NCBI GenBank assembly: GCA_000827325.1
Contig: KN832873.1
Location: forward strand, 189,037 to 253,036
Direction: 5' to 3'
Length of the DNA: 64,000 nt
Source of the DNA: Oidiodendron maius Zn
Taxonomy: Eukaryota; Ascomycota; Leotiomycetes; Myxotrichaceae
In this document: positions 4,381 through 57,476 of the stretch, piece after piece
Layout of the letters: every line of letters starts with the position of its first letter
How positions within the stretch are numbered: the first letter of the stretch is position 1
Notes under the pieces: model-generated
Databases searched by the model: none
What the model saw: only the letters and a program-made list of their open reading frames with translations
What the model was told of the DNA's origin: nothing
Made by a program: the position numbers and the translations under genes

Positions 4381-4653
4381 ATGTCACAGGCATCGTCAAT
4401 TCCGCAAAGATCCTTTGAGACCAATCCCAAGTCCAACGTCGAAATTAGAGATCCTGCATCAGAGGGGAATAGGAGCGCAGGGGAAAACGGCCCTGGCTTC
4501 AAGGGCCCTGGGAGCTCTACCTCTAAGCAAGGAGGGATACAACTTCATTCGAACAAAGTGATGAACAGGGTAGATCCTCGCTTCGATGCAGATCGGCTAC
4601 AGGAAGCAGAGAAAGAGAGGTCGGAGGTCAATTCGAGCTCAAAAGGACAATAA
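4381..4653 (+). CDS. Small hydrophilic protein, 90 aa
   Basis: A single-exon frame from an ATG in an A-rich context (ATAAAAATG) to TAA. The protein is hydrophilic and rich in Ser, Gly, Asn and Glu, with no signal peptide or helix-forming hydrophobic stretch. Its C-terminal part contains NRVDPRFDADRLQEAEKER, which weakly resembles the DPRVDS motif of the partial gene at 53-295. Fungal hydrophilin-like small proteins have this composition. The call rests on length, start context and composition; no family was recognised with certainty. Confidence 0.5.
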   Translation: MSQASSIPQRSFETNPKSNVEIRDPASEGNRSAGENGPGFKGPGSSTSKQGGIQLHSNKVMNRVDPRFDADRLQEAEKERSEVNSSSKGQ

Positions 4654-5213
4654 GAATACCGGCATATGAGACCGGCAGAAATTCTGGGTGTTAGACGTCT
4701 TAAGGATAGATATTGTTCTTCGTGGCGCTGTTTAGATAAATGATCACCAGCGTCTTCACTTGTATACAGCCTCGCTTTAGGCTATGCTCAAACGCAATTC
4801 TTTGATTGGAATTCAATAATCTTGCTGTCCTACACTCCAATTTAGATAGACTCAAATTTTAAATGGGCCTTCTTTTCTCCATTCTCCTAATCCTCTGGTG
4901 CTGGTATCTCAGTCTTCAGAATCATGGCCAGCAGGATACACAAAAATACAGCACTCGCCTTTCAGCTAGTCCGGTGTGAGCATATGCTGTTAATAATATC
5001 TTCATCGACTTGGCCTTTCATTGTACAGACGTACATTTAATTATTATATTAAAATTCATAGGAGAGTGACTGCAACCTGCCTTTGATTCTTTATTACAAT
5101 AATAATCTCGATTTCAATATTGAGCAGCAGGACTGTTATGCAGTCTCCAGCATCCAAATTCCAATACAGTCATCCGGGTATATATTGAATTTTCGATAAA
5201 TGGTTACAACTAT
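4654..5213. other. Intergenic stretch, 3' ends of two convergent genes
   Basis: Contains the downstream regions of the convergent genes at 4381-4653 and 5214-5708. AT-rich, no feature recognised. Confidence 0.4.
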
Positions 5214-5708
5214 TCAATTTTCTTTCCAGTTATGCAACAACTCCTGGAAGCTCGGTGAAAAGGTATCAAAGTTTTCCATGCTATCATTTGGAATTTTCCA
5301 CCATCTTGCTTTCTTCCCCTCCTTCGTATAGACTCTTTTTCTACCACTTAGAACGCTGACGTTATCTCCCATGCTTTCTTCATTAATGGTTCCCACAGTA
5401 ATGCCGATTATTTCAGGTTGGCAGAAATACTGCATTGTAATCGGACTTCCACATTCCGTGCAGTGGGTACGAATGGCGATATCGCTGTGCTGATTCGACT
5501 TTAAAGTCTTTGTAGACCGAAAAGTAATTGAGGTCGCGGGAAAGTCCGCAAATGGTAAAAATGAGGAGCCAGAAAGCTTGCGGCAACTGAGACAGTGGCA
5601 GTGTGTGACAGCTGTAGGAAGACTGCTGCTCATATATTGTACGCCACCACAGAGGCAGCTACCAGCTACTTCAAAGGGAGCATCTGTTAATGACCCAGAC
5701 ACCGCCAT
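5214..5708 (-). CDS. GFA/CENP-V domain protein (glutathione-dependent formaldehyde-activating enzyme family), 164 aa
   Basis: The protein fits the zinc-binding GFA/CENP-V fold (Mss4-like). It has GSCLCGGVQY near residue 17, CHCLSCRKLSGSSF near 38-50, and THCTECGSPITMQYF near 83-97. These give the family's Cys pairs (CxCG, CHCxxCRK, CxxCGSP), which bind two zinc ions. The length of 164 residues is normal for fungal members and the domain is complete. Family members are often annotated as S-(hydroxymethyl)glutathione synthase or carbon-sulfur lyase, but most fungal paralogues have no tested substrate, so the reaction is not assigned. No targeting signal is seen and the protein is probably cytosolic. 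Confidence 0.9.
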   Translation of the reverse strand: MAVSGSLTDAPFEVAGSCLCGGVQYMSSSLPTAVTHCHCLSCRKLSGSSFLPFADFPATSITFRSTKTLKSNQHSDIAIRTHCTECGSPITMQYFCQPEIIGITVGTINEESMGDNVSVLSGRKRVYTKEGKKARWWKIPNDSMENFDTFSPSFQELLHNWKEN

Positions 5709-7243: not shown

Positions 7244-7283
7244 GACAACTCCAGTCATCCGTACAGTAAGATGCGAGACCAGC

Positions 7284-8676
7284 CTCTAAGGGGGAGGGAA
7301 AAGTGGCCGATTTTTGGCCCGTGCGCACCACACCAAAACCCACTAAAAACCCACTATTTACATGTAAACAACACAACGAATTCAGCACTATAGCACGCAC
7401 ACGATCACGCAAATCAGTTGCACGATACTATATACCTCCTCCAGAGCTCTCTCTAGCAGAGGGGCAAGCAAAGACTCCCCAACAAGCCGCTATAATAGCT
7501 GCTAAGGCCTTTGTACAAGAGCTAGGCATCCCAATCCCTAAATCCATTATCCGCAAAGTCACCGGCGTCTCCGAGTGTAGCCAAATATATATATTAGCCT
7601 TATACCAAGTTAGAACACGTTATAATTGGGTAGATTTAGGGCCTGATCCCTGAGGTGGGACACGGTCAATTACACGGTCAGAAACGGCCGCAATTGCAGC
7701 CTATCTTGAAGACGAATCAGTCTTACTTGACGACCGCGGCGCGCCATGGCTTGATATTGCAGAAGCCTCTGGTGTAACACTCCCTTCTACCCTGTATTCT
7801 AAGCCTCCAGGCCTCCGTACAATCAAGCCACAAACTATACGATGGGCCTGTAAGGCAGACGAAGGTATAATTAATACTGTATGTAAGGAGGAGAAGGAAT
7901 TGACGGAGAACCAAGCTACTGTACGGGTCGATTGGACAGACAAGCAGCTAGGTATACGTCTATACTTAAAGGACTGGGAAGACGTGGCGTTTTGTAACGA
8001 GTTTCACTTTGGAATTGGGCTGTAAATTACAAAGAGAGTGAAGAGAAAGGAGGGTAAAGAGTATAGATATAAGCTATATAATATCTACTGTAAGAAGGTT
8101 ATATCTAAAGATATAAAGGCAAAGGCACGGGAAGAGGAGCACCTTCAGCTCTTAAATGTCTTCGTTATTATTGGCTTTAATTATTGTAAGTGTATACTAT
8201 ATAAAGTGTCTAATAATGTAGGCAAGATGACGACCAAAGTCTATACAGGATATATACTCCCTACTATACAAGACAACTTAATTAAAGAGGGCTTAACTCT
8301 TTACCAAGATACTAATTCAGCTTATATAAGTAAAGCTACAATAAAGTATACTCGCAAGCAAGGAATTATACTTCTTACATTACCTGGAGTCTCTCCAGAC
8401 CTCTCTATTTGTAAGACTATAGCAAATCCTCTTAAGAGGGCCTTTCACTTGCGCCGGTATATAACGGAGAGGGCTATATTAGCCCGGTTTGAGCTTGTAT
8501 TTAATCAAATAGATCAGAAGAAGGTACAAGAGCAGTAAATATAGTACTATAAGAGGTTACATAAGTGTAGGAGAGCTAGAGGGCAGATGACTAGATATTA
8601 ATGAGGAAATAATCCATTGAGTTTTAGTGTGGTGCGCACGGGCCAAAAATCGGCCACTTTTCCCTCCCCCTTAGAG
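7284..8676 (+). mobile_element. 1.39-kb Tc1-like DNA transposon, RIP-mutated, 5-bp target duplication
   Basis: Near-perfect terminal inverted repeats of about 56 bp begin CTCTAAGGGGGAGGGAAAAG at 7284 and end with the complement at 8676, with one mismatch seen near the inner end. The element is flanked by CCAGC on both sides (7279-7283 and 8677-8681). The uninterrupted right TIR of the outer element has a single CCAGC at the matching position, which supports a 5-bp target duplication and not the TA of classic Tc1/mariner. A TA also sits inside each end (CTCTA), so a TA-bounded reading was considered and set aside. One long frame fills the element and carries several premature stops. It sits in the left TIR of the outer element and is therefore younger than that element. 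Confidence 0.85.
7303..8601 (+). pseudogene. Transposase of the 1.39-kb Tc1-like element, inactivated
   Basis: A single reading frame runs through the element from about 7303 to a final TAA at 8599-8601, interrupted by in-frame stops at 7651 (TGA), about 8023 (TAA), 8536 (TAA) and 8542 (TAG). These are the codons C-to-T change makes from CGA or CAA/CAG, as RIP does. The C-terminal half has the DDE-type features of the Tc1/mariner and IS630 group: LTLYQDTNSAYISKATIKY with the second catalytic Asp, then LLTLPGVSPDLS with the third acidic region. The N-terminal part (FSTIARTRSRKS through PKSIIRKVTGVS) would hold the DNA-binding domain. The many Tyr and Ile codons (TAT, ATA) where fungal relatives have Cys, His or Thr also fit C-to-T decay. 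Confidence 0.8.
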
Positions 8677-8734
8677 CCAGCTTCCGCCTAACGTCTATCC
8701 CTGTGTGCCGAGACGCACTGTATAACGAGACAAA

Positions 8735-9625
8735 ACGTAGATACTTCAAGTTCAAGCGACTAAAAATCTGTGAACGCGTAAAAATTTCTATTTATTTTTA
8801 TTTCAGTTGTATTATATACCTCTCCTGAACACTCCTAACCTATCTATTCCGAAAATTATAACCATATCGTCGCCGCGCCCTTGAATTTACAGAGGGCCTT
8901 CCTTTGGCATTATATTAGACCCCTTGACTCGCAACACCACTATCAAGCTTTTTCCAACTTTTAAACTCATAAAACGATTAGATATAGATATTCAGGTTTT
9001 ATTATAATACTAAACCGGTTTTCTTAGTCTTGTGGCGGCCAGAGCGCGCTATATCATACTCTATCGCCATATAGGCCGATACCTCCTCCAATCAAGCGAT
9101 CGATGATCCTGGTTAGCGGCGGTGTGATTATAGTAATCTTGGTAAAATTGTAATAAAATCTGTGGCTGCTAAATGTATAGCTGTAACGTTTGTGGCTGCG
9201 TATCCCTTGCTGGAAATTTCTTGTTTCCCGAAAAATTCCGTTCTGCCGATATACTCTGATCACCACATCCTTACATCAGTCCTCACACTCCAGCAGCCGC
9301 ATCACGTGAAAGGCTCTTACTGCCTGAGAATTCCCTATCGGCGGGCCTGTATTAACACTCTCTTATACTTTCTAGAAATACAGGAAAGCAAGTGGCGATT
9401 CTAAAATAGTATAAGAGTAGATGGTTCCCTAGGACCCTCCAAGAAATAAAAAATTTAATTCTTTATAACAAGCCTTGCTCCTTTTTTAAAGCCAACGACT
9501 GAAATTCTCCCAGATGAATGCCCTATAACAAGATTTCTGTTCCAAGTAGCTGAACAAATTTCCCGATAATCGGGAGGTAGCCAAATAATATTCGTATCGC
9601 CTTCCACTACCCAATGATTTGATAT
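8735..9625. other. Non-coding segment between the TIR and the receptor's 3' end
   Basis: About 0.9 kb of AT-rich DNA inside the 5.57-kb element. It would be the 3' flank of the receptor gene. Short frames exist but none is recognisable; no transposase similarity was found by eye. Confidence 0.35.
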
Positions 9626-12600
9626 TTATAGGACTGGCAATAGTTTGCTGTCGGGTGAGAAGGCCACCAATCTGACCGAGCCAGTGTAGCCCTCGAGCGT
9701 CTGCAGTGCTGCTCCTGTGGCCGCATCCCAGAGCCGCACTGTCCCATCATCTGATCCTGACACGACCTGCTTGCTATCAGGTAAGAAGGCCACCGAATTG
9801 ACCGAGCCAGTGTGGCCCTCGAGTGTCTGCAGTGCTACTCCCGTGGCTGTATCCCAGAGCCGTACTGTCCTATCATCTGATCCTGACACGACCTGCTTGC
9901 CGTCAGGTGAGAAGGCCACCGATCTGACCCAGCTAGTATGGCCCTCAAGCGTCTATAGTGCTGCTCCTATAGCTGTATCCTAGAGCTGCACTGTCCTATC
10001 ATCTGATCCTGATACAACTTGCTTGCTGTTAGGTGAGAAGGCTACCAATCTGACCCAGCCAGTATGGCCCTCAAGCGTCTGTAGTGCTGCTCCTGTGGCC
10101 GCGTCCTAGAGCCGGACCGTCTCATTATCTGATCCTGATACGACCTGCTTGCCGTCAGGTGAGAAGGCCACCAATCTGACCGAGCCAGTATAGCCCTCAA
10201 GCATCTGCAGTGCTGCTCCCGTGGCTGTATCCTAGAGCCGGACTGTCTTATCATCTGATCCTGATACGACCTGCTTGCCGTCGGGTGAGAAGGCCACCGA
10301 TCTGACCGAGCCAGTATGGCCCTCAAGCGTCTGTAGTGCTGCTCCTATAGCTGCATCCCAGAGCCATACTGTTCTATTATCTGATCCTAACATGACCTAC
10401 TTGCTGTTGGGTAAGAAAGCTACCGATCTGATCTAGCTAGTGTAGCCCTCGAGCGTCTGTAGTGCTGCTCCTGTAGCTGTATCCTAGAGCTATACTGTCT
10501 TATTATCTGATCCTAATACAACCTGCTTGCTATCAGGTAAGAAGGCTACTGAATTGACCGAGCTAGTGTAGCCCTTAAGCGTCTGCAGTACTGCTCCTGT
10601 AGCCGTATCCCAGAGCTGCACTATCCTATCATCTGATCCTGATATAACCTACTTACTGTCAGGTAAGAAGGCCACCGAATTGACCCAGCCAGTATAGCCC
10701 TTAAGTGTCTGTAGTACTGCTCTCCAATTTGTGTCTACTCTTGGTTTCCTTTCAATCCAATATAGGATACACTTCTTAAATGTTTTTCAGATAATACTCT
10801 TCTCTAGAGTAAAGATAAAGGCTGAACAATATAATTGGAGGGGTGCCTGTTCAATAACTAATCAGTTATATACTACAAACTGTCTTGTATTATATATAAA
10901 CAAATATAAATCAGGGCTTTTATCAGCCTTATTATATTAGTAGGGTTTCTTTAATAACTCCTTAAAAATTAGTATAACTTACTTGAAGCTGGTTCTTAAG
11001 CTTTAAAATTATAACGATACTATTTGGTAGGCTTTTCATTAGGCTAAGCACCTTAAGCCAGTAAATATAACTCGTGCTTAAAAACTGATAGACTAAGCTA
11101 CTGTCTTTAAGGTCATTAATAGTGTCCTCTCTATTATAATGAAGTAGATAGTCAACCTAATAGAGACAAGAGTATTATACTACAGCTAGTAGATCTGGAA
11201 TAGGCGGCTCGACCTTATCAATTAGGAATCCAGGGGTATATAATATATATATATTGTGATGAAGTGTTCCAGATATAACCTTGTGCAATCTCGAGAACAT
11301 TATATAGTTTACCTTTGCCTTGCTAAAGGGAAACATCCTATCAAAAGCCTTTCTAAGCAAAAAGTCCTTTACTGATTGATAGATGAAATAGATACAATTC
11401 TCCTATATAGTGAGGAAAGAGCTATATTTGTTGATAACCTTTATAACTTTATCAAGATTAGTAGCGATTTATTTAGGTAGATTAGAGAGGGCCTCTAACT
11501 CAAGAAGGTAGAGTGGGCAGTATACAAGAGTTATAGTGGAAAGGACAAGATAGCAGAACTCAGGATCTTTATACTATAGCTGTTGAACTTACTATAGCAT
11601 CCGATTGTAGAGTGGTTCCAACTTGGACGGCATTTCCTGAAGTATATTAAGTATATCCTAGCTCTCTATAGGCTTAAGCTCCTTTAAAACAAGAGCTGCC
11701 TAGAGAAAAGTCCTACTAGCCTTAGTGTATATTTAATCTCGGACTGTCTCTTGTAGCGTACTATCATCTATAAGAAGTGGAAGTTTGGACACTTTAAAAT
11801 TAATAAACATCTTGATAGTATAAGAAACATGCTCTTCGTTAAGCTCAAGGCTAAGCCTTATTTATATATTATCAAGTCTTAGCTGTATCTTGATATCGGG
11901 TTCGTTATAGCTTGATATAATCTATTTAACGCAAGGGGATATTGAGGTAGTTTAAGTAACTAGATTTAAAAGCTAGGGAAGGTTTGTTTTGTATTTGTCA
12001 AGCGTATCGATAATCAAGTAGATACTCTTCAAGCTTGGGTCTTATAGAATGCTTATAAAGATTTCAGACAATGCAACCTATATATTTGTATCTTCAAAGA
12101 GGGCCTTGCTAGTATAATTATACTTTTTCTGTATATACAAGACAAGTGATAGTTGCTAGTTGATAAGCAGGTAGATAAGGCTATAGAGTATAGCCGCTAT
12201 ATTATTGATACACAAATCAGTAGCCTAGCAGAAGAAGTATAACAATAGTATAGTTAAGTCCTTGTTTCTTAGCCTTGTTAAGGGGCTTATTTTATCGAGA
12301 ATACTGTAGATCAGCATTGTCTTGCCTTTACTGGGGTCGCCCTTGATCCAGAGCAGCCAGCTCTGTTTGTCATTGCGCTATTGTTGGAAGTCGGGATGTT
12401 TGAAAATCTACTAGTAGGAGTCTTATAGCAGTCTGCCCTTTATATCCTTGATCTGCTTCTTATCCTTATAGGGGTCTGTTGTCTGTAAGTTCTATATATA
12501 GCTTTGACTCTAGGGATTAAGTAGATGCTTGTTTTCTTATAAAAGGTGATTAGAGTATAGCCGACTATAAAGCAGTTAATTATATATTTACCTATTAGAG

Positions 12601-13339
12601 AATTCTGGATCTCCTTCTGGAGCTGTTTAGATATATGCTCTATCTCTTCGCTATAGATAAGCAGCAAATAGATGCCAAAAATTCCTAAAAGTAAGTATAT
12701 CTTGTCTTCTCTATATATTGTCTATCGATTTTCTGCCTACAAGAATCGCTTATTAACTCCAAATTGAGATAAAGAGGCTCCTTCTAGTACTAAGATTGGA
12801 ATTCCTGTTATCTTATGGATATACTGCTTTAGAGATCCTTTATCTCCTAATCGCTTGTAATATCGAGAGAAGAATTCAACTAAGGTTAGGGCAAGAAGTT
12901 CTTGAAGTGTCCAGCCTTGTATAAACTATCTGCTTGTTCGGAATACTGATTCCCAGGGAAGTTGGTAGGACCGGTCCTTATTATTGATGGTTTATCTTAG
13001 AACGTCTGATAAAAAGATGTAGTATTTTGCTGTATTATAGTACTATCGAAATATAGAGTTGATAGCCTCTGCAAGTTCATTATTGTTCGATCTGTCGATA
13101 TAATATATATCAACCCAGAAATTGTATAGGCTATTATGTCTGGCTTGTGCTCTATATAACTGTATCTTCTTGTATCCAACCTTGTTCTTTCTAGTACTAT
13201 CTATCAGGTCTCTATATATGACCTTATCTGTATCTGCCCCCTATATATATGAAAGGATCGTATATTCTGGAATCCTGCCACCAACAAAATCCTTGGTTAG
13301 GCTAAGCTTGCCATTGTTGTTGTATTCTAGTAGACACAT
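9626..13339 (-). pseudogene. HET-NACHT-WD40 receptor gene (NLR, HNWD class), RIP-decayed
   Basis: Reading the complement from the ATG at 13337-13339, fragments follow the order of fungal HNWD receptors. First comes a HET domain: MCLLEYNNNGKLSLTKDFVG, PEYTILSYI, then a region matching the usual 'FWVDTCCID' block (here NFWVDIYYIDRSN), and later the 'AENRQTTREEDKAYSLLGIF' type block in decayed form. Next comes a NACHT P-loop (LLWIKGDPSKGKTMLIYSI, complement of about 12290-12350). Last is a tandem WD40 array (9640-10715) ending at TAA 9626-9628. Stops are scattered through all three parts and the AT content is high, so no protein is expected. Intact relatives act in allorecognition and programmed cell death in fungi. 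The gene lies wholly inside the 5.57-kb TIR element. Confidence 0.8.
9640..10715 (-). repeat. Tandem array of 126-bp WD40-coding units, at least eight
   Basis: The landmark CTGATCCTGA (or its decayed form) starts at 9751, 9877, 10003, 10129, 10255, 10381, 10507 and 10633: exact 126-bp spacing, or 42 codons. On the complement each unit reads like SGSDDxTVRLWDxATGxALQTLEGHTGSV with AFSPDGKQVV. Units are much more alike than normal WD40 repeats, as in the hypervariable HNWD genes. C:G to T:A differences increase toward the 10.4-10.7 kb end. Confidence 0.88.
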
Positions 13340-14218
13340 TACTCAGACAGGATCTGAGAGAATCTCTGAACGGAAGAATGTTAGTGGATAGTTGTTGCAG
13401 GGTCGATATACATATATTTGTCAAGGTGGAGAGTACAGGTTGGGTTAAGGTTGTGCTTGTACAGCTCAGCTGGACAACAGCCTTACGGCATGGCGTGGTG
13501 CATCATCTGCAGGGTATACCAGCCGATCGCGAGCCACTGAAACTATACAAGCTGGGAAGACAGCTGAACATTAGATAAGCCATAAGGGCTTCTTTCTCAC
13601 GGCTCTGCCATTAACTTACACCTAAATTTACGCCTTGCGCTAGGACTTGACTGGCTCTGTCCATATTATCCTGCCGTCGTGATAGTGATAGGGACAAGAG
13701 ACGGCGCTCAGCGCTCATGCAGCCCAGGCCAGCGTGCTGCTGCCTACCGATAGAGAAACCTGTTCTTACGCCACACACATGACCAGTATGCTCCACACAT
13801 GTGATAAGGCCTGTAAAATATAGCGAGCCCAGGCGTGAACATAGTATATTTTGACGAGGTTAATGCACACGACTAAACACCGAAACATGTCGCCCCTTTC
13901 CTCGCAACGGCAAAACTCCCGGACTGCATTCTTTTCCTCTCTAAGTTTCTTTAAAATTTGGAGCCATATTATTTCGTCATAGGGTCTTTCCCCAAGTGCT
14001 CCGAATTTTAAAAAGACTCTAATGGTCGCTATTAAGTAGGGGGGAACAACTAAAGCAGCGATCGGTGGCGTGATTAAAACGATCGACAGCATAATCAACC
14101 ACAGTCTTTTCTCTATTGCTAAGTGGTCTCCTTAGGAGGAAATAGTTAAAGAAAGTGACATATTAATAACAACTTCGTAGACTTGCTAAGAAAAATTTTA
14201 TAATCATAAAACCATAGA
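13340..14218. other. 5' flank of the receptor gene inside the 5.57-kb element
   Basis: About 0.9 kb upstream of the receptor start. A 110-codon frame on the minus strand (13766-14098) has a hydrophobic N-terminus but no recognised family, and was not called. This segment is less AT-rich than the gene body. Confidence 0.35.
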
Positions 14219-14324
14219 TTTGTCTCGTGACAGGGTGCGTCTCGCTACGCAGGGACAGACGTTACACTAAATGTTACTTTTTTAATTTACCTCGCTAAAT
14301 AATACATATGCGGTCAGCCCCATA

Positions 14325-16192
14325 ACGTAGTTGTATAGTAAGCGATCCAGGACAGTACGCGATCCAGGATCCATAAAACTATACCCAAATCTCCACTTTT
14401 GACTAATATTACTCCACAACCAACGCTCCAAATGTCTCAAACCGAGGGCCGAATCATACTTGCGCTTCAAGCCTATCAGCAGGGCCGATTTTCAAGTTTA
14501 CGGGCTGCTGCACGCTTATATGATGTATCACATACAACCTTACTCCGGCGCAATCATGGGACTACCTCTCGATCCGATTTTACCTCCCCTAACCGAAAAC
14601 TCACTCAAACTGAGGAAGCTACACTTGTTAAATAGATATTATCTCTTGATACACGTGGTACACCTCCTACACAAGTCTTAATACATCAAATGGCCGAATT
14701 ACTCCTCAAAGAACGCATCCAGAACGCGTCGATTGAACAGACTACACTAAGTAACCGCTAGGTCTACCGCTTCATAACTTGACAACCTGAAATCAAATCC
14801 CAATACAGTCGAAAGTATGATTATAAGCGTACAAAATGCAAGGATCCTGAGGTTATTCAGGCTTGGTTTCGGCTTGTACAAAATACAGTAGCAAAATATG
14901 GGATTCTTGATAAGGATATTTATAATTTTGATAAGACAGGATTCCAAATAGGTGTGATTTCTACAGCAAAGGTGGTTACTTCTACTGAGAGGGATCGTAC
15001 AGTATCACTGCAGCCTGGAAATCGTGAATGGGTTACAGCAATTGAGTCAATCAACTCGACAGGCTGGGTCTTACCTCCCATGATTATCCTTAAAGGTATT
15101 ATACACCAGAACAGCTGGTATAAGGCTGTACCTTGGCGAATTGGAGTCAGTGATAATAGCTGGACGACTGATGAATTAGGCATTACTTGGCTCAAGAAGG
15201 TCTTTAACCTATACACTCAGGGTCGTACAATTGGAAAATATCGGCTTCTACTTATAGACGGACATGGAAGTCATGTTACAGCTGAATTCGACCAATACGC
15301 CAAACAAAACTTAATTATCGTGCTCTGTATACCTCCCCACTCTTCACATATTCTACAGCCTCTAGATGTAAGCTGTTTTGCAGTCTTAAAACGACTTTAC
15401 GGACAGGCTGTAGAAGCACAAATGCAGGTCGGAATCAACCATATTGACAAGGACGACTTTCTAGCCCTATATCAAGAGATCCGTCCAGCTGTATTTCAAT
15501 CAGGTACAATTCAGAGTGGTTTTAGAGCTACTGGAACAGTTCCCTTTAACCCAGATCAAGTTTTGTCAGAATTACATGTCCAAATGCAGACACTATCACC
15601 TCCTCGAGTACTGACTCAAACCCTATGTCCCTGGGACCCTGAAACACCACACAATATTATTGAATTACAGCTTCAGACTAAGGCTGTTCAACAATTGATT
15701 CGGTATCGTATACAGAGTCCTCCTACTCCAGCTATTCAGGCAGTCAATCAGCTAATTAAGGGCTGCCAAATGGCTATGCATAATACGACAATCCTTGCGG
15801 CCGAGAACAGGCAATTACGGGCCGCAAATACAAGGGTACAGAAGAAGAGGGCTAAGAAAACAATGTTTGTCGGTAAAGGAGGGACTTTAACTGCCCAAGA
15901 GGTCCAAGAGGGTCGGAATCAGGGTCAGAATCAGTCTGTAACTCATGATGAGGTTAGAATTCAGATGGTTGAGCCATCCAGCTGTACGGTATCTATACAT
16001 GCGCCACGGACATGTAGTCTATGTAGATCACTAGAACACACTGCTCGAACGTGTCCAGAGCGTTAATGATTCAATTAGTTTAATTAGCTAGTTAGTATTT
16101 AAAGTGGTTGATTTTTAATTAATTAATATATTTAGGAGTGGTAGGGATGCTGGATCGCGTACTGTCCTGGATCGCTTACTATACAACTACGT
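14325..16192 (+). mobile_element. 1.87-kb pogo/Fot1-type transposon
   Basis: Perfect inverted repeats of 43 bp start ACGTAGTTGTATAGTAAGCG at 14325 and end at 16192. TA flanks both ends (14323-14324 and 16193-16194). Each TIR contains GCGATCCAG twice. The element sits at the TA that ends the left TIR of the outer mariner-type element; the intact right TIR has the same CCCCATA there. The internal gene is nearly full length with three premature stops, so the element looks fairly recent. The 434-bp MITE at 50186-50619 shares its terminal motif. Confidence 0.9.
14432..16066 (+). pseudogene. pogo/Fot1-family transposase with three premature stops
   Basis: The frame starts at ATG 14432 (MSQTEGRIILALQAYQQG) and ends with TAA at 16066; it would code for 544 residues. 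In-frame stops lie at 14633 (TAG), 14758 (TAG) and about 14779 (TGA). Each fits a C:G to T:A change. The N-terminus holds a psq/CENP-B-type helix-turn-helix (SSLRAAARLYDVSHTTLLRR). The DDE_1 core shows all three Asp motifs: YNFDKTGFQIG, LLLIDGHGSHV and LQPLDVSCFAVLK. The C-terminus ends in a zinc-knuckle-like CSLCRSLEHTARTCPER. From 14954 on the frame is open to the end. Inactive as it stands. Confidence 0.88.
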
Positions 16193-16311
16193 TATAAACG
16201 TGCATTAGCAGCTTAGCTCATAACACGTGAAAGGTACTGTTGAGTCCTGGGTACTTCCCTGGCAACTTTTGCATTTTCTTTCTTTTAATTCCCCCGCACC
16301 TGAATGACGGG

Positions 16312-17457
16312 ATGGTAACCTGCACAAGCGTCCATGTGGCTCTGCCCCGAGATGGCCCATTAACTAAGACTGCCATCAAAGATATTGTCGGATTATTTGT
16401 CACTAACGAGTGGCAAAGCGTGGATCCAGAAACACTCGTTGTAACAAAGAATGCCGGAGCAAACCAAAACTACACAATAGAACGACCAAAGACTGAAGGT
16501 GATACAGACCCAGGCCCTTGTAAGGTCTTCCTCAAGATCCACAATGAACTTGACATAGTAAACAATGTGTTCCAGCACTTGGTACCAAACAAGTACGAGG
16601 AGGCACAACTATGTCACGACTACGGTCGGTCAGGTCTCGGTGCCAAGGTTTATGGGTTCTTCCAGACAAAGGACGGCAGTTTGGGAAGGGTCGACGAGTT
16701 TCTGGATGCACGGAATTTGGAGCCAGAAGATGTGGAAGACGCAGATATCCGAGCCGCTGTGGCCAGAGGGCATGCTGCTTTCCACACCATGAAGACGCAG
16801 CTGGAGGAGAAACCGGTACAGGTCTATTACGATATCATCACCAAGCAGCTTGAAAAGTATCATAAGATGGCCAAACTCAAAAAGCTCGCCTATGAAGCGG
16901 GCGTTAACATGGACGATCTCATTGATTACGACTTCGCATCAAAGATAAGGCGCGTAACAGAGAGGCTGGAGTCGATGGGAGGGAAAAAAGGATGGTGCAT
17001 CCACGATGTGTCCTTCGTGAATGTGATGGTGAAGAACACCCCCAAACAAGGAGAAAGCAAAATCGCCCTTATAGATTTTGAGTTCGTCTTTTGGAACTAC
17101 AGGGCTTTTGACGTTGGTGGACACTTCATGCAGAAGGTGTTCAAATGGGTTGATGAGGACGGCAGAATGGCCCGTTACAAGCCTTATACGGAAGAGGAGA
17201 AGAGGCACTTTTGCAAGGAGTATGTCGAGCAGTGGAACCACGAGACTGGTGACTCAGACACAGGGGAGCAAGTCTTTAGGGAATCCGAGCTGGGGTACCT
17301 GCTGGCTATCACTTTTGACATCCATAACATGCTCTGCTACATTGAGCAGGAGGTTGACAAGGATCTCTTGAACCGCTTGGACCTCTTGGCATTTAACAAG
17401 CTATTTGGAGAGTTTGTTAATAGGTATAAAAGGCTCGGACTAGACATTCATGACTAA
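16312..17457 (+). CDS. Choline/ethanolamine-kinase-like phosphotransferase, 381 aa, inside a transposon
   Basis: Intact single exon from ATG 16312 to TAA 17455-17457. It belongs to the choline/ethanolamine kinase and APH-like kinase fold. KVFLKIHNE (about residues 71-79) would contain the ATP-site Lys. GWCIHDVSFVNVMV (about 227-240) is the Brenner loop: catalytic Asp and metal-binding Asn kept, but the usual HND reads IHD. ALIDFEFVFWNYRAFDVGGHF (split about 251-271) holds the second metal-binding Asp and the choline-kinase signature. An aromatic pocket for choline is not assured, so the substrate is unassigned. The gene lies inside the TIRs of the outer mariner-type element, with its stop 2 bp from the break in the transposase relic. 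It is GC-richer than its surroundings and shows no RIP decay. An upstream in-frame extension to 16240 lacks an ATG. Confidence 0.82.
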   Translation: MVTCTSVHVALPRDGPLTKTAIKDIVGLFVTNEWQSVDPETLVVTKNAGANQNYTIERPKTEGDTDPGPCKVFLKIHNELDIVNNVFQHLVPNKYEEAQLCHDYGRSGLGAKVYGFFQTKDGSLGRVDEFLDARNLEPEDVEDADIRAAVARGHAAFHTMKTQLEEKPVQVYYDIITKQLEKYHKMAKLKKLAYEAGVNMDDLIDYDFASKIRRVTERLESMGGKKGWCIHDVSFVNVMVKNTPKQGESKIALIDFEFVFWNYRAFDVGGHFMQKVFKWVDEDGRMARYKPYTEEEKRHFCKEYVEQWNHETGDSDTGEQVFRESELGYLLAITFDIHNMLCYIEQEVDKDLLNRLDLLAFNKLFGEFVNRYKRLGLDIHD

Positions 17458-17458
17458 T

Positions 17459-17790
17459 AGGGTCACTGGCGTCACGGGCTGTGCCGATATAGGATACGGC
17501 TATGTTGTATCCATCCGCAACCCATAAAAGCTTTATCTCGCTGCTTGGAGGCACTAGCTTATCTAGAGCGTATATAGCATCAAACATCAGAAGTGTAATA
17601 TCTTGAGGACGTCCAATATTAGGATGGGCCTTAGTTGTGCTATATTGTCGAGGGCTCGAGTTTATCGCATAAGCGGAACAGCAACTTCTGCTATTTCGTG
17701 AGCTTTAAATGACTTACTGGCTAGCATATCGCTAATCAGAGAATGCCTTTGTTGTGCAAGTCTCGGCGTTATTCTCCATGCTAGATTTCT
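17459..17790 (-). pseudogene. N-terminal relic of a Tc1/mariner transposase
   Basis: On the complement, starting near 17790, the frames give TPRLAQQRHSLISDMLASKS, then FKAHEIAEVA, then after a frame change STTKAHPNIGRPQDITLLMF and VSYIG. This is the order of the paired helix-turn-helix domain in fungal Tc1/mariner transposases (the 'IxDMLxSxSFxxxEIAxVA' and 'TTKAPPNxGRPRSITPPMLDAL' blocks). The relic stops at about 17459 and the catalytic DDE domain is absent; the kinase gene takes its place. It contains at least one frameshift and several stops. Its 5' end faces the right TIR, as expected for the original transposase gene. Confidence 0.7.
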
Positions 17791-17894
17791 CGAGCATGAT
17801 GTTTGCAGAATATAATATCGCAAACAAAAGACGGCGAGGGATGTTAGGACTTGTTGTCTTGTAGTTGAAACCCTCAGCTATGCAGAAGTACCCA

Positions 17895-17982
17895 TATGGG
17901 GCTGACCGCATATGTATTATTTAGCGAGGCAAATCAAAAGAAAACACATAGTGTAGGCGGAAGCTGGTTTCGCATCTTACAG
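17895..17982 (-). repeat. Right terminal inverted repeat of the outer element (intact)
   Basis: Eighty-eight bases, ending at the TA at 17983-17984. The complement starts CTGTAAGATGCGAAACCAGC and ends GCGGTCAGCCCCATA. It is the uninterrupted counterpart of the left TIR pieces at 7264-7283, 8682-8690 and 14265-14324. Confidence 0.85.
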
Positions 17983-18568
17983 TATGGGGTATGATTGTGT
18001 AATTTTAAGGGCTGTAAAGATTAGACCCCTTATATTCGCATAAGGAAACTTAACAATCGGTATAAAAATCAAGGGATGAATAATGGCACCCTCTAGTGGA
18101 GTCCTCTGTTGCGCAAGCTTATACATAAGTTTGTGTTGCTCTGGAAAAATCAAGTTTGCAACTGTTTGCGGACCCAGGTGAACGCAACTTGGAAACCATC
18201 CTCAAAAATTCCATCTCACGCCTTCGGAGCGGAAGATCCCAATGTCCTAGGTGCTTAATTAGAGATGTCTAGAGATATAGACTTATATGACTGAGTAACA
18301 CGATCAAAAAATGACAAGTTGCGAAATTGTGTGAATCACCTGCCGTTGGCTGGCTACTCGCAATTGTACTTATGCCTCGATGCCGTCTAAGATGATTGCG
18401 TACGCTCTGCTTTTGCCTCTTAAGTTGTAGATATGTCCAAAATAGTACAAGCATAGGTATTAGCAGAAAACTCTAGATCAAAAAGTACTGCAAGTTCCTC
18501 CTCCTCTCCTACATAGATAATCAGCCTGCTCGTACCTTGTCAAAGACCTGCTTGTATATTCTTTCATA
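17983..18568. other. Intergenic stretch, no feature seen
   Basis: About 0.6 kb between the right end of the outer element and the 3' end of the MFS gene. No gene or repeat was recognised. Confidence 0.4.
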
Positions 18569-20252
18569 TTAGACATTAGCATGGTCAGGCATAGTCAAGC
18601 ATGGGCCGGTCAAGAAGTTTCGGCCCTTTAAGCTAGGACGACTAGTTAAAAGAGCCTGAAAGCCGTCTTGAATTGACTCCAAAGAGTGGCCTTTTGTCTC
18701 TGGCATTGTAATTGCAAGGACAACTACACTGAACAGCGAGACTCCCCCAAAAAGAAAGTAGGCTCCGTATGTAGAGCGGGAAAGGAATATTGGGGTCGCG
18801 AATGCAACTACCCAGTTCGTAAACTATGATGGCACTTGTTAGTATCTTCCAACGAAGTCAGTGCTGTGCATGCGGGCTTACAAAATTAAGCCCCTGGGCT
18901 GTGCTATTTGCCGCTGCTCTTGTTTGAGCTGGTTGGATCTCGCTGGCGTAGATCTTGCCGACTACTCCCCAGGTTGCAGCGTAGGTCAAGGCAAATATAA
19001 AGATGAGGACAATTACAATCCATCTACCTGCACCAGTATTGTTTTGAACACTGTTTGACGCATACAAGCTTCCAATAACAAACATGCATATAGACAAAGC
19101 AATTCCGCCGGTTATGACTGACGTTCTTCGACCCCAGCTATCAGCATATACAAATGCCGGGATAGATACCACTAGCATGAGGATGGCTGAGACCCCGGAG
19201 GCTAGGAAGGATGCCGTTCCGCCTGGTAGTCCTGCTTGAGCAAACAGGATAGGCGCATACTGCATTAATTTCAATTAGTAATTCAACAATTATTTAATAA
19301 GACTTACATATAGAACACCATCTATCCCGCAAAGCTGGATTACTCCAAGAATGAATAAGCCAAGCATAGTTCGTCCTCTATACTCTCTCTTAAAAATTGT
19401 CACGAAGTCCTTCACAGCGAACTTTCTAGGCGGACCCGGCACGGTGGGTCTTAATATATCTTTCTCAGCTTCTGCTTGCGAGATATCTAGACGTGTAATT
19501 GCTTTCAAAGCCTCGTCACGACGATTATGCAGGAGGAGCCAGCGGGGGGATGTAGGCAGCCATAGGCAGCTCATCGCCAAAGTGAAACCAATCGCTCCCT
19601 GTATAATGAAAGGTATACGCCATGAAAGAGTTGTCTTAATGTGAATTGTCCCATAGCAGGTAAAGTAGCCAGCACATAGTCCAAAAGCGGCCATAAGCTG
19701 CGGCATCGAAACAAGAGTTCCACGCCGGGCACTAGGAGCTATTTCTGTAATATACCTAAGACGTGCCATTAATAATTGTCACAATGAATACCAAGTCGTC
19801 AACTTACACTGATACATTGCTTAGCCATAGCCCTTCCCCAATTCCCGCAAGCGCTCGTCCTACGAGAAACATAGCCAGGTTCGACGATGCGCCTTCAATA
19901 GCCACGCCAACAGTAAACACCAAAGCGCCGGCTATCACCACATGCAAGGTGCCAAAAATGCCTGCCAAATGCCCAGAAAATATCGAGGGCAAGGCACCAG
20001 TCACCATGATCAGAGAAATAGTAAAGCCTCGAAGGACGGGACTCAAGGTTCCGATAGTACTCTCAAAATGTGGCATCGTGGTCAATGCTCCGATGGAGCC
20101 GGTATCATAACTATATCTCATCAGGAGGCTTAATCGCGTAGGAGATTAGGTACAAACCCATTCAGAAATCCACCAATTGAAACGATCGATGCAAAGAGGG
20201 CGTATCCCTTAAGTGGGAAATGTCGGTTCGCATATTGGAGAATTCCTCCCAT
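18569..20252 (-). CDS. MFS sugar porter (hexose/quinate-permease type), 492 aa, five exons
   Basis: Exons on the minus strand: 20158-20252, 19808-20110, 19308-19755, 18882-19259 and 18569-18823. All four introns are 46-58 bp with GT-AG ends and keep phase. The protein starts MGGILQYANRHFPLKGYALF, with the first membrane helix soon after. Sugar-porter signatures are present: GRALAGIGEG with ITEIAPSARRGTLVSM after helix 4, PTSPRWLLLHNRRDEAL before the central loop, YADSWGRRTSV after helix 8, and PETKGHSLESI after helix 12. Length and motif set are normal for the family, so it is probably a working plasma-membrane transporter. The substrate cannot be read from sequence; hexoses, quinate or related polyols are all possible. 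Confidence 0.88.
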
Positions 20253-22151
20253 GGTGATTTCTGTGGAAAGAGAACCCCAAATGCCTGCTTAGAGTAGGTT
20301 TTTATATATCAGATGGCAAAATAGGGACAAAAATTTGAGCCTTGTACATAAAAGTAGGTTCTAGGATATAACGGAAGTTTTCTTGTTGTGAAGCGTAAGA
20401 CTGGGGTGGGATAAGCCCATATATAACATTACTGATACCAAGCGCGGTTCACGAGAGGGTAAAACTAGTAATATATGAAAATATGGGCCGCTAACCTAAG
20501 GGGGAGATTTTTTCAGTTGGTCAATATTATACGCTAGAATCTGTGCTGGTTTAGGCAATAGCGATGCTTCAGACTACGTCAAACAGCAGAGTCTATGCCT
20601 CGGATGCTTGCAGTAAACCTTGCTTAGTAATTAGTATGTGCATCTGGACAGTGGGACAATGAAGTAAATATCTCACTATTATAAATCGAAGGAAATGACA
20701 GCACTTTAATCTAGAAGTTGCCGCTTATACAAACTGTAAGCTGTCATAAGAGTCTTTAGTAGCTTCGATGCTCAGCAGTTTAGCACTCATTAGGCTATAG
20801 ATAGAGAGAAACGCCGTCCTTAACTTACCCAGTACTTATATACAGCCTAAAATGTATTATCTATTGATTTATGCAATTCTCTTTCGTGTAGGAGTATATA
20901 GGAGCGGTTATTATCTTTTGTCATTGTAATATAACACTTTGTGGCAACATAGGCATCCAATTCAAGTACTATCCCACCTCCGGAATAAAGGTCACCTCCC
21001 CACTTTTCGCCCTAAAACTGCTTAACTTGTAAGAGTATGTCTTGAAGGATTCTGTAGGCTCTGGTTGGATGTGCAGGGCAAAAACCCTTCATTTTATACT
21101 TGTCTAAGTTAAGCGGTTTGAAAGATCCGAAGTGGAGAGGTGACATTTATTCAGCGGGGGGGATAGTATTAAAGAGGCTGGATCGGCAGATCGTTATCAG
21201 GCCAAATCACGCAACTTCGGATCAATCCAGCTCCGTATTACATTTTTACGTAGGTCAACAATAATATGCGAAACCATCTTCAGTCTAAATATCTATGATC
21301 TCATAATTCGACGACTATCTTCTCGCTAATTAGTATAGATACGGCTAGCAAACTCGTACCAATGCGTTAGGGCTCCCCTTACAGACACCCCGCAGATGCT
21401 GACATGACACGGTCAGAAGCAAAGGCAAACGATCTCAGCTTTATCACCCAATCTTCATTTCGAAGCCGGTAAATTAGTACATATTACACATCGCTTGGCT
21501 TTGAAGAGTATAAATTGAAGTTATGCGTAGCGGAGGTTGATAAGAAGGCACGCAAGGTTGAGAGAGCTCTGCGTTCCAGGCGGATTGGAGGGGGAAACGA
21601 ACATGCCGTGCGAAGGGAACATTCTTGAGGTTCCCCGAGCATAAAGAGCGTGGTTATTATCCGTGAGTAGCTGCATGGTCCGCTAAAGCTCTCTACAAAA
21701 AGAGATCGCGAAGAGGGAGCAGGAAGGCGGGGATATGTGCGGGGGGCTGTCGTCGTCGTGGTGAGACTTGGTACTTCGACTGAGGCCCTGACTGCTCGCT
21801 GGCGCCAAGTCAGGTGCCCTGTGTCGGTTAATAGGCACCAACGGGAGTACCCGAACCCCATATGTTATCATATCCAGAGGCGTCCTACCTGTCTCCTCAC
21901 TTCTACTTCACCAACAGTAGCAACCGCCATTGCAGCCACCACCACCATAATAGCGGGAACCATCCAAGGCACACATCGAAGCCGACCTGTATCATCGCCT
22001 ATCAGTTGCTTTCAACCGCCGCCAACTGCTATCTTTGATGTTCTATGGTGGTGTTCCATACATGGACAGCGATTACAATTCGGGCAATCCACTCATTCCA
22101 TATATGCTCACGGGCATCTGAACCCTTACCCAGTTCAAGTCAAAGCTGCAC
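20253..22151. other. Intergenic stretch of 1.9 kb with one MITE
   Basis: Apart from the MITE at 20969-21166 no gene is supported. Overlapping open frames on both strands at 21.5-22.1 kb are low-complexity (Ser, Thr, Pro) with no domain. Confidence 0.4.
20969..21166. mobile_element. 198-bp MITE with about 60-bp inverted repeats
   Basis: The left end CTATCCCACCTCCGGAATAA and the complement of the right end, CTATCCCCCCGCTGAATAAA, are inverted repeats that continue for about 60 bp (shared blocks GTCACCTC, CCACTT and GCTTAACTT). TA flanks both ends (20967-20968 and 21167-21168). There is no coding capacity, so it fits a Stowaway/Tc1-mariner-type MITE. TIR divergence suggests some age. Confidence 0.75.
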
Positions 22152-50039: not shown

Positions 50040-51057
50040 GCCCAACGCGACGGCTTGTCGTTACACGCTCTTCTCATGAAGAGGTGGAGGTTGGCATATA
50101 ATATCCATTATCTACATTGCATAAATCCACTAGTACGGAATTTTGTATGTCCGTGCGTTGTAGACGATGCGTACACCAGGAACTAACGTAGTTGACAGGT
50201 AAGCGATCCAGATCAGTACGCGATCCAGCTAAATTTACTGCAAAAACCACGATTTTAAAACTGCAATAACTTACCCATTTCTTAATATTTTAATATAAAA
50301 TTAAAAATGCCACCTATTTATATATATGCGATTAATATTTGTAAATATAAAAGAAATCAAGTTGTAAACTTTTGAGATACTAAATTTTGGCTAAATTTTG
50401 GCCTTAAATTTGACCTTAACCTGTAGAACCTAATAACTATATAATGGATCATTAATTTAAGCTCAAATATTAATTATATATAAGTAAATACGTGGGATTT
50501 TTAATTTTACACTAAAATATTAAGAAATGGGTATGTTATTACAGTTTTAAAATCGTGGTTTTTGCGGTAAATTTAGCTGGATCGCGTACTGATCTGGATC
50601 GCTCACTGATCAACTACGTTAGCTAGTAAGATCTTACATAACCGCCGTATCTTCTCTTCACATGGAGCCTCTGTCAAGACCTTGTGCATTATCACATCAG
50701 CGTCTAGAGGGCTGGTTGTCGGATTCCAAAGATAGTGGTGAACAACTCGATTAGTAGGGAAGGTCAGCTCCTAAGGAGCATATTACAGACATCCCGTGAC
50801 CAATTATCACGTAATTCTCCGTCTGATACCGGGCTGCCAACATCTCTCTGTCAACTACCGAGTTTCTCCCCATCGAGTCGTCCCACCACTTCCCCTCTAG
50901 TCAGCAATGTCGCCTTGAAATTCTCCTAGGGTACGTGTCCTTGGCCGCGATTAAGACCATCTCGACAACCAGGCAACGGTGCTGACTTCGATCTACGGAT
51001 ATCTTGTTCATGTGTTGCCCACCCCATCTCAATCCGAGAGCTGTATCCATTTGAGCC
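50040..51057. other. Intergenic stretch of 1 kb holding a MITE
   Basis: Apart from the MITE at 50186-50619 no feature was seen. The segment 50622-51057 is the promoter side of the F-box gene. Confidence 0.4.
50186..50619. mobile_element. 434-bp MITE related to the pogo element at 14325
   Basis: Inverted repeats of about 107 bp at both ends, about 90% or more identical by eye (starting ACGTAGTTGACAGG and ACGTAGTTGATCAG). TA flanks both ends (50184-50185 and 50620-50621). The outer 45 bp share ACGTAGTTG and two GCGATCCAG units, with CAGTACGCGATCCAG, with the TIR of the pogo/Fot1-type element at 14325-16192. There is no coding capacity. It is therefore likely a MITE family moved by that transposase type. 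The centre is AT-rich. Confidence 0.85.
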
Positions 51058-55221: not shown

Positions 55222-55590
55222 ATGGCACAAACAAGCAAAGACTGGCTTCTTGAACGCCCTGACGCAGAAATGCCCTTGGGACGTCGCTGAGAATCCCATC
55301 CCGGATCGAAGCGATCATGAGGTCCCCGTCAGAATATACGCCGTTGGATTGAACTATAGAGGTGTTATGATTGTACGGGTAAGGGATTCTCTACCCTCTT
55401 AATGAGGATTTGCTGACAGAAGGCTGAATCCACAACCAAGGGCAACTATCACTGGGCGGTGAAAGAGGCAAAGTGATCCCATATGCTGATTGATGGTGCT
55501 GGGGAGATTGTTTAAGGTCGGAGCGAAAGTCACGCGGTTTAGCCCGGGCAACCGAGTGTGTTCTGTATTGTTCCAGCATCACAAATACAG
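55222..55590 (+). pseudogene. 5' relic of a zinc-type alcohol dehydrogenase/quinone reductase gene
   Basis: Starting at ATG 55222 the frames read MAQTSKDWLLERPDAEMP, then in another frame AENPIPDRSDHEVPVRIYAV followed by GLNYRGVMIVR, then VGAKVTRFSPGNRVCSVLFQ. This is the N-terminal GroES-like domain of MDR-family dehydrogenases ('VSLNYRDLMIVRG', 'DGAGEVVEVGxxVTRFxPGDRVCSxFFQ'). The pieces fall in different frames with stops between. Homology ends about 25 bp before the pogo element at 55616, and nothing recognisable continues after 57476, so the gene is decayed and truncated. Confidence 0.6.
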
Positions 55591-55615
55591 TATTTCAAGA
55601 TTTATTAAATTACTA

Positions 55616-57476
55616 ACGTGTATGTACAGTGAGTCGCTTAGGACAGTAAGCCGTTCATTTTCTATAATTTCCCACCCTACTACACTTTACCCTACTTTTT
55701 CTCCACTGTACATTATGGAATCAACTTCTAATGAACGCAAGGTTATCCTTACCCTCCAAGCCCTTAAACATAACCCCTGTCTTAATGTTACACGTACAGC
55801 CAAGATCTATAGTGCTCCACTTAGAACAGTCCTTGATCGACGCAGTGGCCGACCATCACGACACGATATTCAACCCAAATCTCGAAAGCTTACTGATTTA
55901 GAAGAATCAGTGATTGTTCAATATATTCTTGACCTTGATTCCAAAGGGTTTCCACCTAGGCTTTGTGGTATAGAAGATATGGCTAATCATCTGCTTACTA
56001 AACGAAATACAGGACGCATCGGAACGCGCTAGGCTTCTTGCTTTATACAACAACAACCACAGCTTACTACACGTTTTAATCGAAAATACAATTACCAGAG
56101 AGCTAAATATAAAGATCCGATTATAATTAGTGGCTGGTTTTCACTCCTCAAGAATACAATTGCAAAGTATGGGATCGTGGACGCGGATATCTATAATTTT
56201 AACAAGACTGGGTTTATGATAGGCGTTATCTTAACAGCAATGGTGGTTACAAGCTTAGAGAGGTCTGGTAGAGCAAAGGCAAAGCAGCCTGGTAATCGCA
56301 AATGGGTTATAGTAATCCAGGCTATAGATGTGCTTGGCTGGTCACTACCGCTATTTGTGGTTGTGAAGGGTGTATATATCCTACTCTCCTAGTATAATGA
56401 GTTCAAATTACCAAAGGGTTGGAGGCTCTCTATTAGTGATAATGGGTGGACTACAAATGAGATCAGCCTAGATTGGATCAAGCATTTTGAATTATATATA
56501 CAGCCTCGAAAAGTAGGTGGATATCGACTCCTAATACTTGATGGCCATAAATCCCACCACTCAACCGAATTTGAGCTTTTCTGTCAGGACCACAATATCA
56601 TTACACTTTGCATGCCTCCTCATTCCTCTCATATTCTCCAGCCACTTGATGTAGGCTGTTTTAGTCCATTGAAAAAGTCATACGGCAAGCAAATTGAGGG
56701 TTTAATACGTGGTGGTCAGACCTATATCACAAAGGAGGATTTCTTTCCAGCATTCCAGGTGGCATTCCAAGAGTCAATGACTATACAAAACATCCAGGGA
56801 GGTTTTAGAGGGACTGGAATTACACCTTTTAATCCTCAGCGAGTCCTAGACATCCTCCCTCCTTGTGCAAAAACGCCAACTCCTTCAAACTCACGTCCTG
56901 GTACAGCCCAAACCTAGAACCCTAGGACTCCAAAGAATACAACCAATACCTCACGACAGTCTACCTTTATTAAAACCCGAATTAATTACCATCAGGGTAG
57001 CTCTCCAACACAGGCTATTGATGCTGTAGACCAATTTACTAAGGGTTCAGTGGCAATTATGTATGAGGTAGCTCTATTGCGGTCACGGATTACTAAGCTA
57101 GAAGAGGCAAATAAGAGGCTTAGCAAGCATCGCAAGCTAAAAAAAACCAGACTACAAAAAGGAGGATCACTTTCTATAGAAGAGGCAGAGGAGTTAGTAG
57201 GTTGTATTAATGTAGATGGCTAGCAGAGTGAGGAAATAGGTAGTAGTGGTGGTCAAGGGCAAGGTATACAATCATGTATTCGGCACTGTGGTAATTGCAG
57301 CAAGACTGGACATAATATACGCACCTGTCAAATAGTACTAGAGACCTCTGAGGAAGAGGATTGATACATTAATAATTAGTTTTAGAGTGTTATGGTTGAA
57401 TAATAATTAATCTTATACTAGGGTCATAGAAAAGTGAACGGCTCACTGTCCTAAGCGACTCACTGTACATACACGT
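55616..57476 (+). mobile_element. 1.86-kb pogo/Fot1-type transposon, second family
   Basis: Inverted repeats of about 50 bp start ACGTGTATGTACAGTGAGTC at 55616 and end with the complement at 57476, with only a few mismatches. TA flanks both ends (55614-55615 and 57477-57478). The size, ACGT terminus and gene layout match the element at 14325, but the TIR sequence differs (GTCGCTTAGGACAGT core), so it is a distinct family. The gene carries four premature stops. Confidence 0.9.
55715..57364 (+). pseudogene. pogo/Fot1-family transposase, inactivated
   Basis: A single frame from ATG 55715 (MESTSNERKVILTLQALKHN) to TGA 57362-57364, interrupted by TAG codons at 56030, 56390, 56915 and about 57221. 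HTH N-terminus (NVTRTAKIYSAPLRTVLDRR). Of the DDE_1 motifs, the first reads YNFNKTGFMIG, with Asn where Asp is expected. The second (LLILDGHKSHH) and third (LQPLDVGCFSPLK) are kept. The C-terminus has a zinc-knuckle (HCGNCSKTGHNIRTCQ). All changes fit C:G to T:A mutation, including the Asp-to-Asn. Confidence 0.88.

Follow-up and report, generated by a model that had tools for sequence, protein, structure and literature searches.

A choline-kinase-like gene in the window (the whole 64,000-nucleotide stretch analyzed here, part of contig C4 of genome G000) is, with a probability of roughly 80%, the cargo of a non-autonomous Tc1/mariner-type transposon. Both TIRs, their TA flanks, a transposase remnant and an open kinase frame are present at this locus (Table 1), and a search of the genome (45.9 Mb in 58 contigs) recovered other facing pairs of the same termini that enclose genes, as well as a broken transposase beside a family terminus. 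About a dozen candidate elements came out of this search, most of them with other genes inside, and they suggest a simple vehicle by which single fungal genes are picked up and moved. If these dozen pairs hold, a single fungal genome contains a cut-and-paste family that repeatedly encloses entire genes one at a time, HET and NLR-type genes included, and this would provide a concrete, searchable route of fungal gene movement on a far smaller scale than that of Starships. HET and NLR-type genes are linked to non-self recognition. The TIR motif CAGTAADATKCGAAACCAGCTTC would allow other genomes to be surveyed for the family.

Table 1. Coordinates of the element and of the features within it (positions of the window).
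Feature	Positions	Strand	Remarks
Whole Tc1/mariner-type element	7264–17982	+	Three nested insertions inside; 1877 bp without them; TA at 7262–7263 and 17983–17984
Left TIR, piece 1	7264–7283	+	CAGTAAGATGCGAGACCAGC
Nested insertion A, 1393 bp	7284–8676		Inverted ends of 59 bp match at 97%; direct repeat CCAGC (5 bp) at either edge
Left TIR, piece 2	8677–8690	+	Begins with second CCAGC copy
Nested insertion B, 5572 bp	8691–14262		Inverted ends match at 83% over 46 bp; target duplication TA
Left TIR, piece 3	14263–14324	+	89% to 17895–17955, inverted
Nested insertion C, Fot1/pogo-type	14325–16192	+	Inverted ends (54 bp with the TA) match at 96%; target duplication TA
Left TIR, piece 4 (inner part)	16193–16257	+	85% to left arm of L012
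Choline-kinase-like gene	16312–17457	+	381 codons, single frame; Pfam, PDB alignment
Decayed N-terminal (DNA-binding) Tc1/mariner transposase remnant	17576–17824	-	Frameshifted
Right TIR	17893–17982	-	Terminus CTGTAAGATGCGAAACCAGCTTC on minus strand; shorter than that of L012

The element, its kinase gene and its transposase remnant

By profile and by its catalytic Asp, Asn and second Asp, the kinase frame is a putative member of the Choline kinase family. It scored 93.8 bits with Pfam Choline_kinase (PF01633), for which the cut-off is 29 (E = 1.5e-26), and PDB choline kinase alpha matched its product (E = 1.2e-20). The stop-free frame around it spans 408 codons, compared to a longest frame of 215 codons in 300 dinucleotide shuffles of 16259 to 17893. 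Within HDVSFVN (residues 231 to 237) and LIDFEF (residues 253 to 258), the Asp, the Asn and the second Asp align with those of human choline kinase; we take the Asp and Asn of the former to belong to the catalytic loop and the Asp of the latter to be the second Asp. A first-pass annotation of this DNA had described the kinase as undecayed, with its Brenner Asp/Asn and second metal Asp kept, and it was right on both counts. The predicted structure was uninformative (mean pLDDT of 53.3).

The borders of the element fared differently. A small TIR element had been placed at 16195 to 17982, and its right end is exact, with the terminus directly followed by TA. Position 16195 directly follows the TA target duplication of the nested Fot1/pogo insertion, and the true left end is at 7264. 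A repeat search of 15600 to 18600 gave five inverted pairs of 15 to 20 nt, none joining the claimed ends, and self-comparison of 13000 to 19500 gave two distinct inverted repeats, 14263–14324/17895–17955 and 14322–14375/16142–16195. The kinase as cargo of Fot1 was ruled out, since Fot1 has an inverted end and a TA of its own at 16192. Each of the three insertions that interrupt the left arm is clean and has a target duplication, which shows that the arm was originally continuous. Once rejoined, it matches the right arm in 80 of 85 aligned positions, with two gaps; its inner part (piece 4) has no counterpart remaining in the right arm. The outward pieces of the left arm (8677–8690 and 7264–7283), together with the TA flanks and the match between the arms, define the element as given in Table 1.

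The catalytic part of the transposase is absent from the element, where only the N-terminal remnant is found. The first-pass annotation had called an N-terminal transposase on the strand opposite the kinase, beginning 2 bp past the kinase stop; the remnant does lie on the minus strand, but it is frameshifted, and its homology-backed start is 118 bp past the stop. The remnant and locus L017 (contig C30) share 71% identity over 269 bp, the remnant having Ile at the position of L017's initial Met, and shorter parts of the remnant match L012, L014, L015, L016, L018/L058, L019, and L020. In L017, the sequence beyond a family terminus at 4387 contains a relative of a full-length DDE_3 transposase, broken yet recognizable (4675–5554), which matched the protein of locus L068 on contig C29 (tblastn E = 5.5e-27), itself a DDE_3 protein with an open frame (Pfam E = 1.2e-28). 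The full-length mariner for which the first-pass annotation had advised a search has a broken representative beside a family terminus; L068, with its open frame, is a candidate autonomous partner at most, since none of the 100 listed termini lies on C29. Because the remnant adjoins the right arm, the TIR is linked to a Tc1/mariner transposase. TA precedes the terminus in 24 of 26 arms, in one of these with a one-base offset. The window element has the Tc1/mariner features of a TA duplication and of paired TIRs common to transposase-bearing relatives.

Family termini and the genes between them

The 21-base terminus, with up to two mismatches, occurred 101 times in the genome, and the reversed control occurred 0 times. 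Neighbor and pair counts are based on 100 listed terminus places, among which 23 neighbors lie at most 7 kb apart: 15 facing, 4 diverging, and 4 on the same strand. This is an excess of facing neighbors (binomial P = 5e-5 against 1/4, with neighbors treated as independent). Thirteen facing pairs span 5 kb or less; 12 of them were read whole (L012 and L057 to L067), along with 2.0 kb of the thirteenth (L075, contig C8). Another five span more than 5 kb, namely, the window element and four that were not read whole (C11:414707, C1:744525, C15:135054, and C30:166386). A degenerate terminus with three mismatches also occurs at 21261–21281 of the window, where no partner was seen.

A Pfam-recognized gene is enclosed in 9 of the 12 facing pairs of up to 5 kb that were read whole. 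This is a raw count, and gene density alone could yield many of these cases, as a 2- to 4-kb stretch of a fungal genome often contains a gene anyway. The recognized cargos are an alpha/beta hydrolase (L057), an aldo/keto reductase (L059), HET plus an AP-1-type C-terminus (L060), HET (L062 and L063), ankyrin (L064), HET-ankyrin (L065), SesA and NACHT-ankyrin (L066), and an OTT_1508-like deaminase domain (L067). Two further pairs (L012 and L061) hold an open reading frame (ORF) without assignment, L058 has no ORF of more than 120 codons, and the part of L075 that was read contains a frame of 609 codons or more that, by eye, resembles ankyrin repeats. HET domains form a large set in this genome (at least 150 matches, from 150 scored of 481 first-look candidates), and with HET this numerous its presence among the cargos is only suggestive. 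The HET and NACHT-ankyrin genes, together with the Fot1-type transposon, suggest a filamentous fungus. In L060 (C11:420170–422400), the cargo at 376–1923 seems to consist of a HET domain and, after it, the bZIP/PAP1 C-terminus of an AP-1-type factor, with a possible GT-AG intron where a gene on C1 (C1:2325383–2325895) seems to have one, again by eye.

How many of these pairs are single elements is a separate matter. The partner was the best match in only 7 of 26 arms (both arms of the window element, both of L057, and one each of L062, L063, and L066). Several of the remaining pairs may thus have arisen by chance or be composite, and the inverted repeat measures only 33 to 78 bp in L058, L059, L060, L061, L065, and L067. 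Some facing pairs may be two independent insertions, or elements with ends from two copies. Applied to the window, the former would make the kinase a resident host gene between two independent insertions of one TIR family, with no capture involved. This would suit the 64 of 100 listed termini that belong to no facing pair up to 12 kb, the density of genes in fungal genomes, and the fact that no other kinase copy was found inside such an element. However, each arm of the window element has the other as its best match in the comparison of 26 arms of 13 elements, and the two share the bases CCGCCTACACTA, which are absent from the other 24 arms shown; the element is flanked by TA, a transposase remnant is attached to one arm, and facing pairs are in excess. 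We therefore consider a resident kinase quite improbable.

The genome search found no second copy of the kinase in a TIR element. The first-pass annotation had looked to such copies for support and had held that TIR copies which never bracket the kinase would speak against capture. Taken literally, the genome fits that condition, since no other TIR copies were found to bracket the kinase, yet other facing pairs bracket other genes, which favors capture rather than refuting it.

If the kinase is transposon cargo, an ancestor with long TIRs and a DDE_3-type transposase would have lost the catalytic part of that transposase and gained a complete kinase gene between its ends. The transposase of an autonomous relative would then, most likely, act in trans, cutting at the TIRs and inserting the whole unit at TA, and the unit would have moved together with its kinase cargo. 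Acquisition may have followed either of two routes. Repair of an excision gap on a foreign template would leave a remnant beside one TIR and similar arms, as in the window element and L012. Use of the outer ends of two neighboring copies, a route proposed for plant Pack-TYPE elements (PMC8903248 and PMC8616336), would give unlike arms and complete genes without a donor, as in several other pairs. The TIR may also provide the promoter of the kinase, considering that its right copy adjoins the transposase start and that the kinase start codon lies 54 bp beyond the last base homologous to the L012 TIR.

Source of the cargo genes and comparison with known systems

The only full-length relative of the kinase in the genome, a single uninterrupted frame at C5:1919280–1920407, is 61% identical at the amino acid level, and C3 has a further match of 79 residues at 39%. 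A recent duplicate was rejected as the source of the kinase: none was found, and synonymous sites between the kinase and its best full-length relative are saturated. The C5 kinase was likewise rejected as a second element of the family, as no terminus with up to five mismatches occurs in the 9.9 kb of L021 (C5:1915000–1924900). That region contains a 90-bp inverted repeat (748–836/6772–6861, 86% alike, ~6 kb apart) around the kinase relative and other ORFs, with a sequence that differs from the Tc1/mariner TIR.

No high-identity donor gene was found in the genome for any of the six cargos searched (the kinase, L057, L059, L060, L067, and L012). The best relative of the AP-1 piece of L060 is the C1 gene mentioned above, at 62%. 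Relatives of the L057 hydrolase reach 34% over nearly the whole length and no more than 40% over parts, and those of the L059 aldo/keto reductase 33%, at most 41%. The L067 protein had no other match in the genome, and the L012 interior had none at the DNA level. Without close donors, the cargos would be old acquisitions, unique genes moved leaving no copy, or genes from elsewhere. It is possible, if doubtful, that the kinase is a long-term passenger which came with its element from another species and was not captured here. Its sole full-length relative is only 61% identical and saturated at synonymous sites, yet the TIR arms agree at 80 of 85 bases, and the other cargos are likewise without close relatives; against this, third-position GC is the same in the kinase (0.583) and the C5 relative (0.582), as expected of a native gene. 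A broader and, in our judgment, unlikely reading takes the family as a set of one-gene cassettes, in which non-autonomous Tc1/mariner shells would each hold a complete, still-selected gene, with HET/ankyrin/NLR-type genes prominent, and the cargos would be unique genes moved or transferred from other species rather than resident copies. If true, such a system would be a miniature counterpart of Starships.

The window element is a non-autonomous TIR element enclosing non-transposon coding sequence, and judged from its sequence it appears to work like a Pack-TYPE element, aside from the high-identity donor gene in the genome, which was sought for the searched cargos and not found. The Pack-type capture proposed in the first-pass annotation is accordingly upheld as to the non-transposase gene between TIRs and the other pairs that enclose genes, but not as to a recent source gene in this genome. 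Like the rice Pack-Mariner elements (PMC8903248), the window element has a non-autonomous Mariner-type TIR shell, a TA duplication, a non-transposase gene inside, and a low copy number; in contrast, the plant elements hold short gene pieces 93 to 98% identical to a genomic gene, whereas here a fungal element holds a complete gene without a close donor.

Capture of this kind had been thought undescribed in fungi, but Manning et al. 2013 (PMC3538342) report transduplication in Pyrenophora tritici-repentis, by hAT and in one case by a Tc1/Mariner element, the latter having 46 members, 31 of them almost identical. Those elements, too, are TIR transposons of a fungus that bear an additional ORF between their TIRs; there one cargo was amplified to many copies, whereas here the cargos differ and each searched cargo was found once. 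The hAT elements that carry histone H3 in Mycosphaerellaceae (PMC6710886) similarly place a host gene between the TIRs of a cut-and-paste element but have 8-bp duplications and carry a single gene, and RIP has inactivated their hundreds of copies. Intact genes, including NLR and HET, are also carried by the fungal mobile elements ToxhAT and the Starships (PMC9594970, PMC12506042, PMC6737239, and PMC12134995); they range from ~14 kb to hundreds of kilobases, compared to 1.9 kb and one gene here, and Starships are classed by their tyrosine recombinase. A Starship was ruled out for the window element on the basis of its size without nested insertions (1877 bp), where the kinase and the transposase remnant are the only recognized coding parts. 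Pack-MULEs, Helitrons, and Starships are named as gene-capturing elements in PMC10799480. A literature search at the level of titles and abstract openings, with most subscription papers and preprints outside it, returned no family of fungal Tc1/mariner elements in which many different genes each form a single cargo. Gene capture by fungal TIR transposons is already published; what would be new is a family with many different single genes.

Selection on the kinase and decay around it

Comparison of the kinase with its C5 relative gave identities of 72, 79, and 41% at the three codon positions, a dN of 0.29, and a pS of 0.79, at which saturation of synonymous sites precludes a dN/dS ratio. The codon-position pattern and dN indicate purifying selection, for which the first-pass annotation had proposed a test, on the window and C5 branches taken together; the pattern may largely be older than the insertion.

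Evidence closer to the insertion comes from the nested elements. Since the Fot1/pogo insertion lies inside the left arm, it is younger than the Tc1/mariner element, and it has HTH_psq and DDE_1 in one frame with three internal stops. The open kinase frame, set against the three stops of this younger insertion, argues for selection after insertion. The kinase might instead be a dying gene, captured and then released from selection, with its frame open by chance. With no more than 5 differences between the arms in 85 bases, the time for decay may have been short, and we estimate that a neutral 381-codon frame could survive that with some luck; the arms are a poor clock, since they need not have been identical at insertion. 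A dying gene is harder to reconcile with 381 codons without stop or frameshift, given that Fot1, though younger, is broken, as is the transposase remnant, and with the retention of the catalytic residues, and we regard it as somewhat unlikely. We have moderate confidence, based on these sequence comparisons, that the cargo kinase has been kept by selection since its insertion.

Heavy mutation had been ascribed to the repeats neighboring the kinase. This holds only in part: the Fot1 transposase frame has three stops, and the composite RIP index is +0.47 in insertion A but weak in insertion B (+0.10) and 0.00 in Fot1; the kinase gave -0.49 and the whole window -0.33. A positive composite RIP index suggests RIP. 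With the index raised in A, weak in B, 0.00 in Fot1, and negative in the kinase, RIP accounts only partly for the decay nearby.

The right boundary of insertion B recurs in the genome, with 31 of 48 matches stopping there (query positions 765 to 767). Within this insertion, 9645–10722 is a tandem array with a 126-bp unit and shifted self-matches 81 to 85% alike. Elsewhere in the window, 50184–50621 has inverted ends ~87% alike to those of the nested Fot1 and is probably a miniature non-autonomous derivative. At 56153–56662, two pieces match the nested Fot1 coding region at 71% and 81%, perhaps another pogo/Fot1 copy, and a 179-amino-acid ORF (55493–56032) lies just before this stretch.
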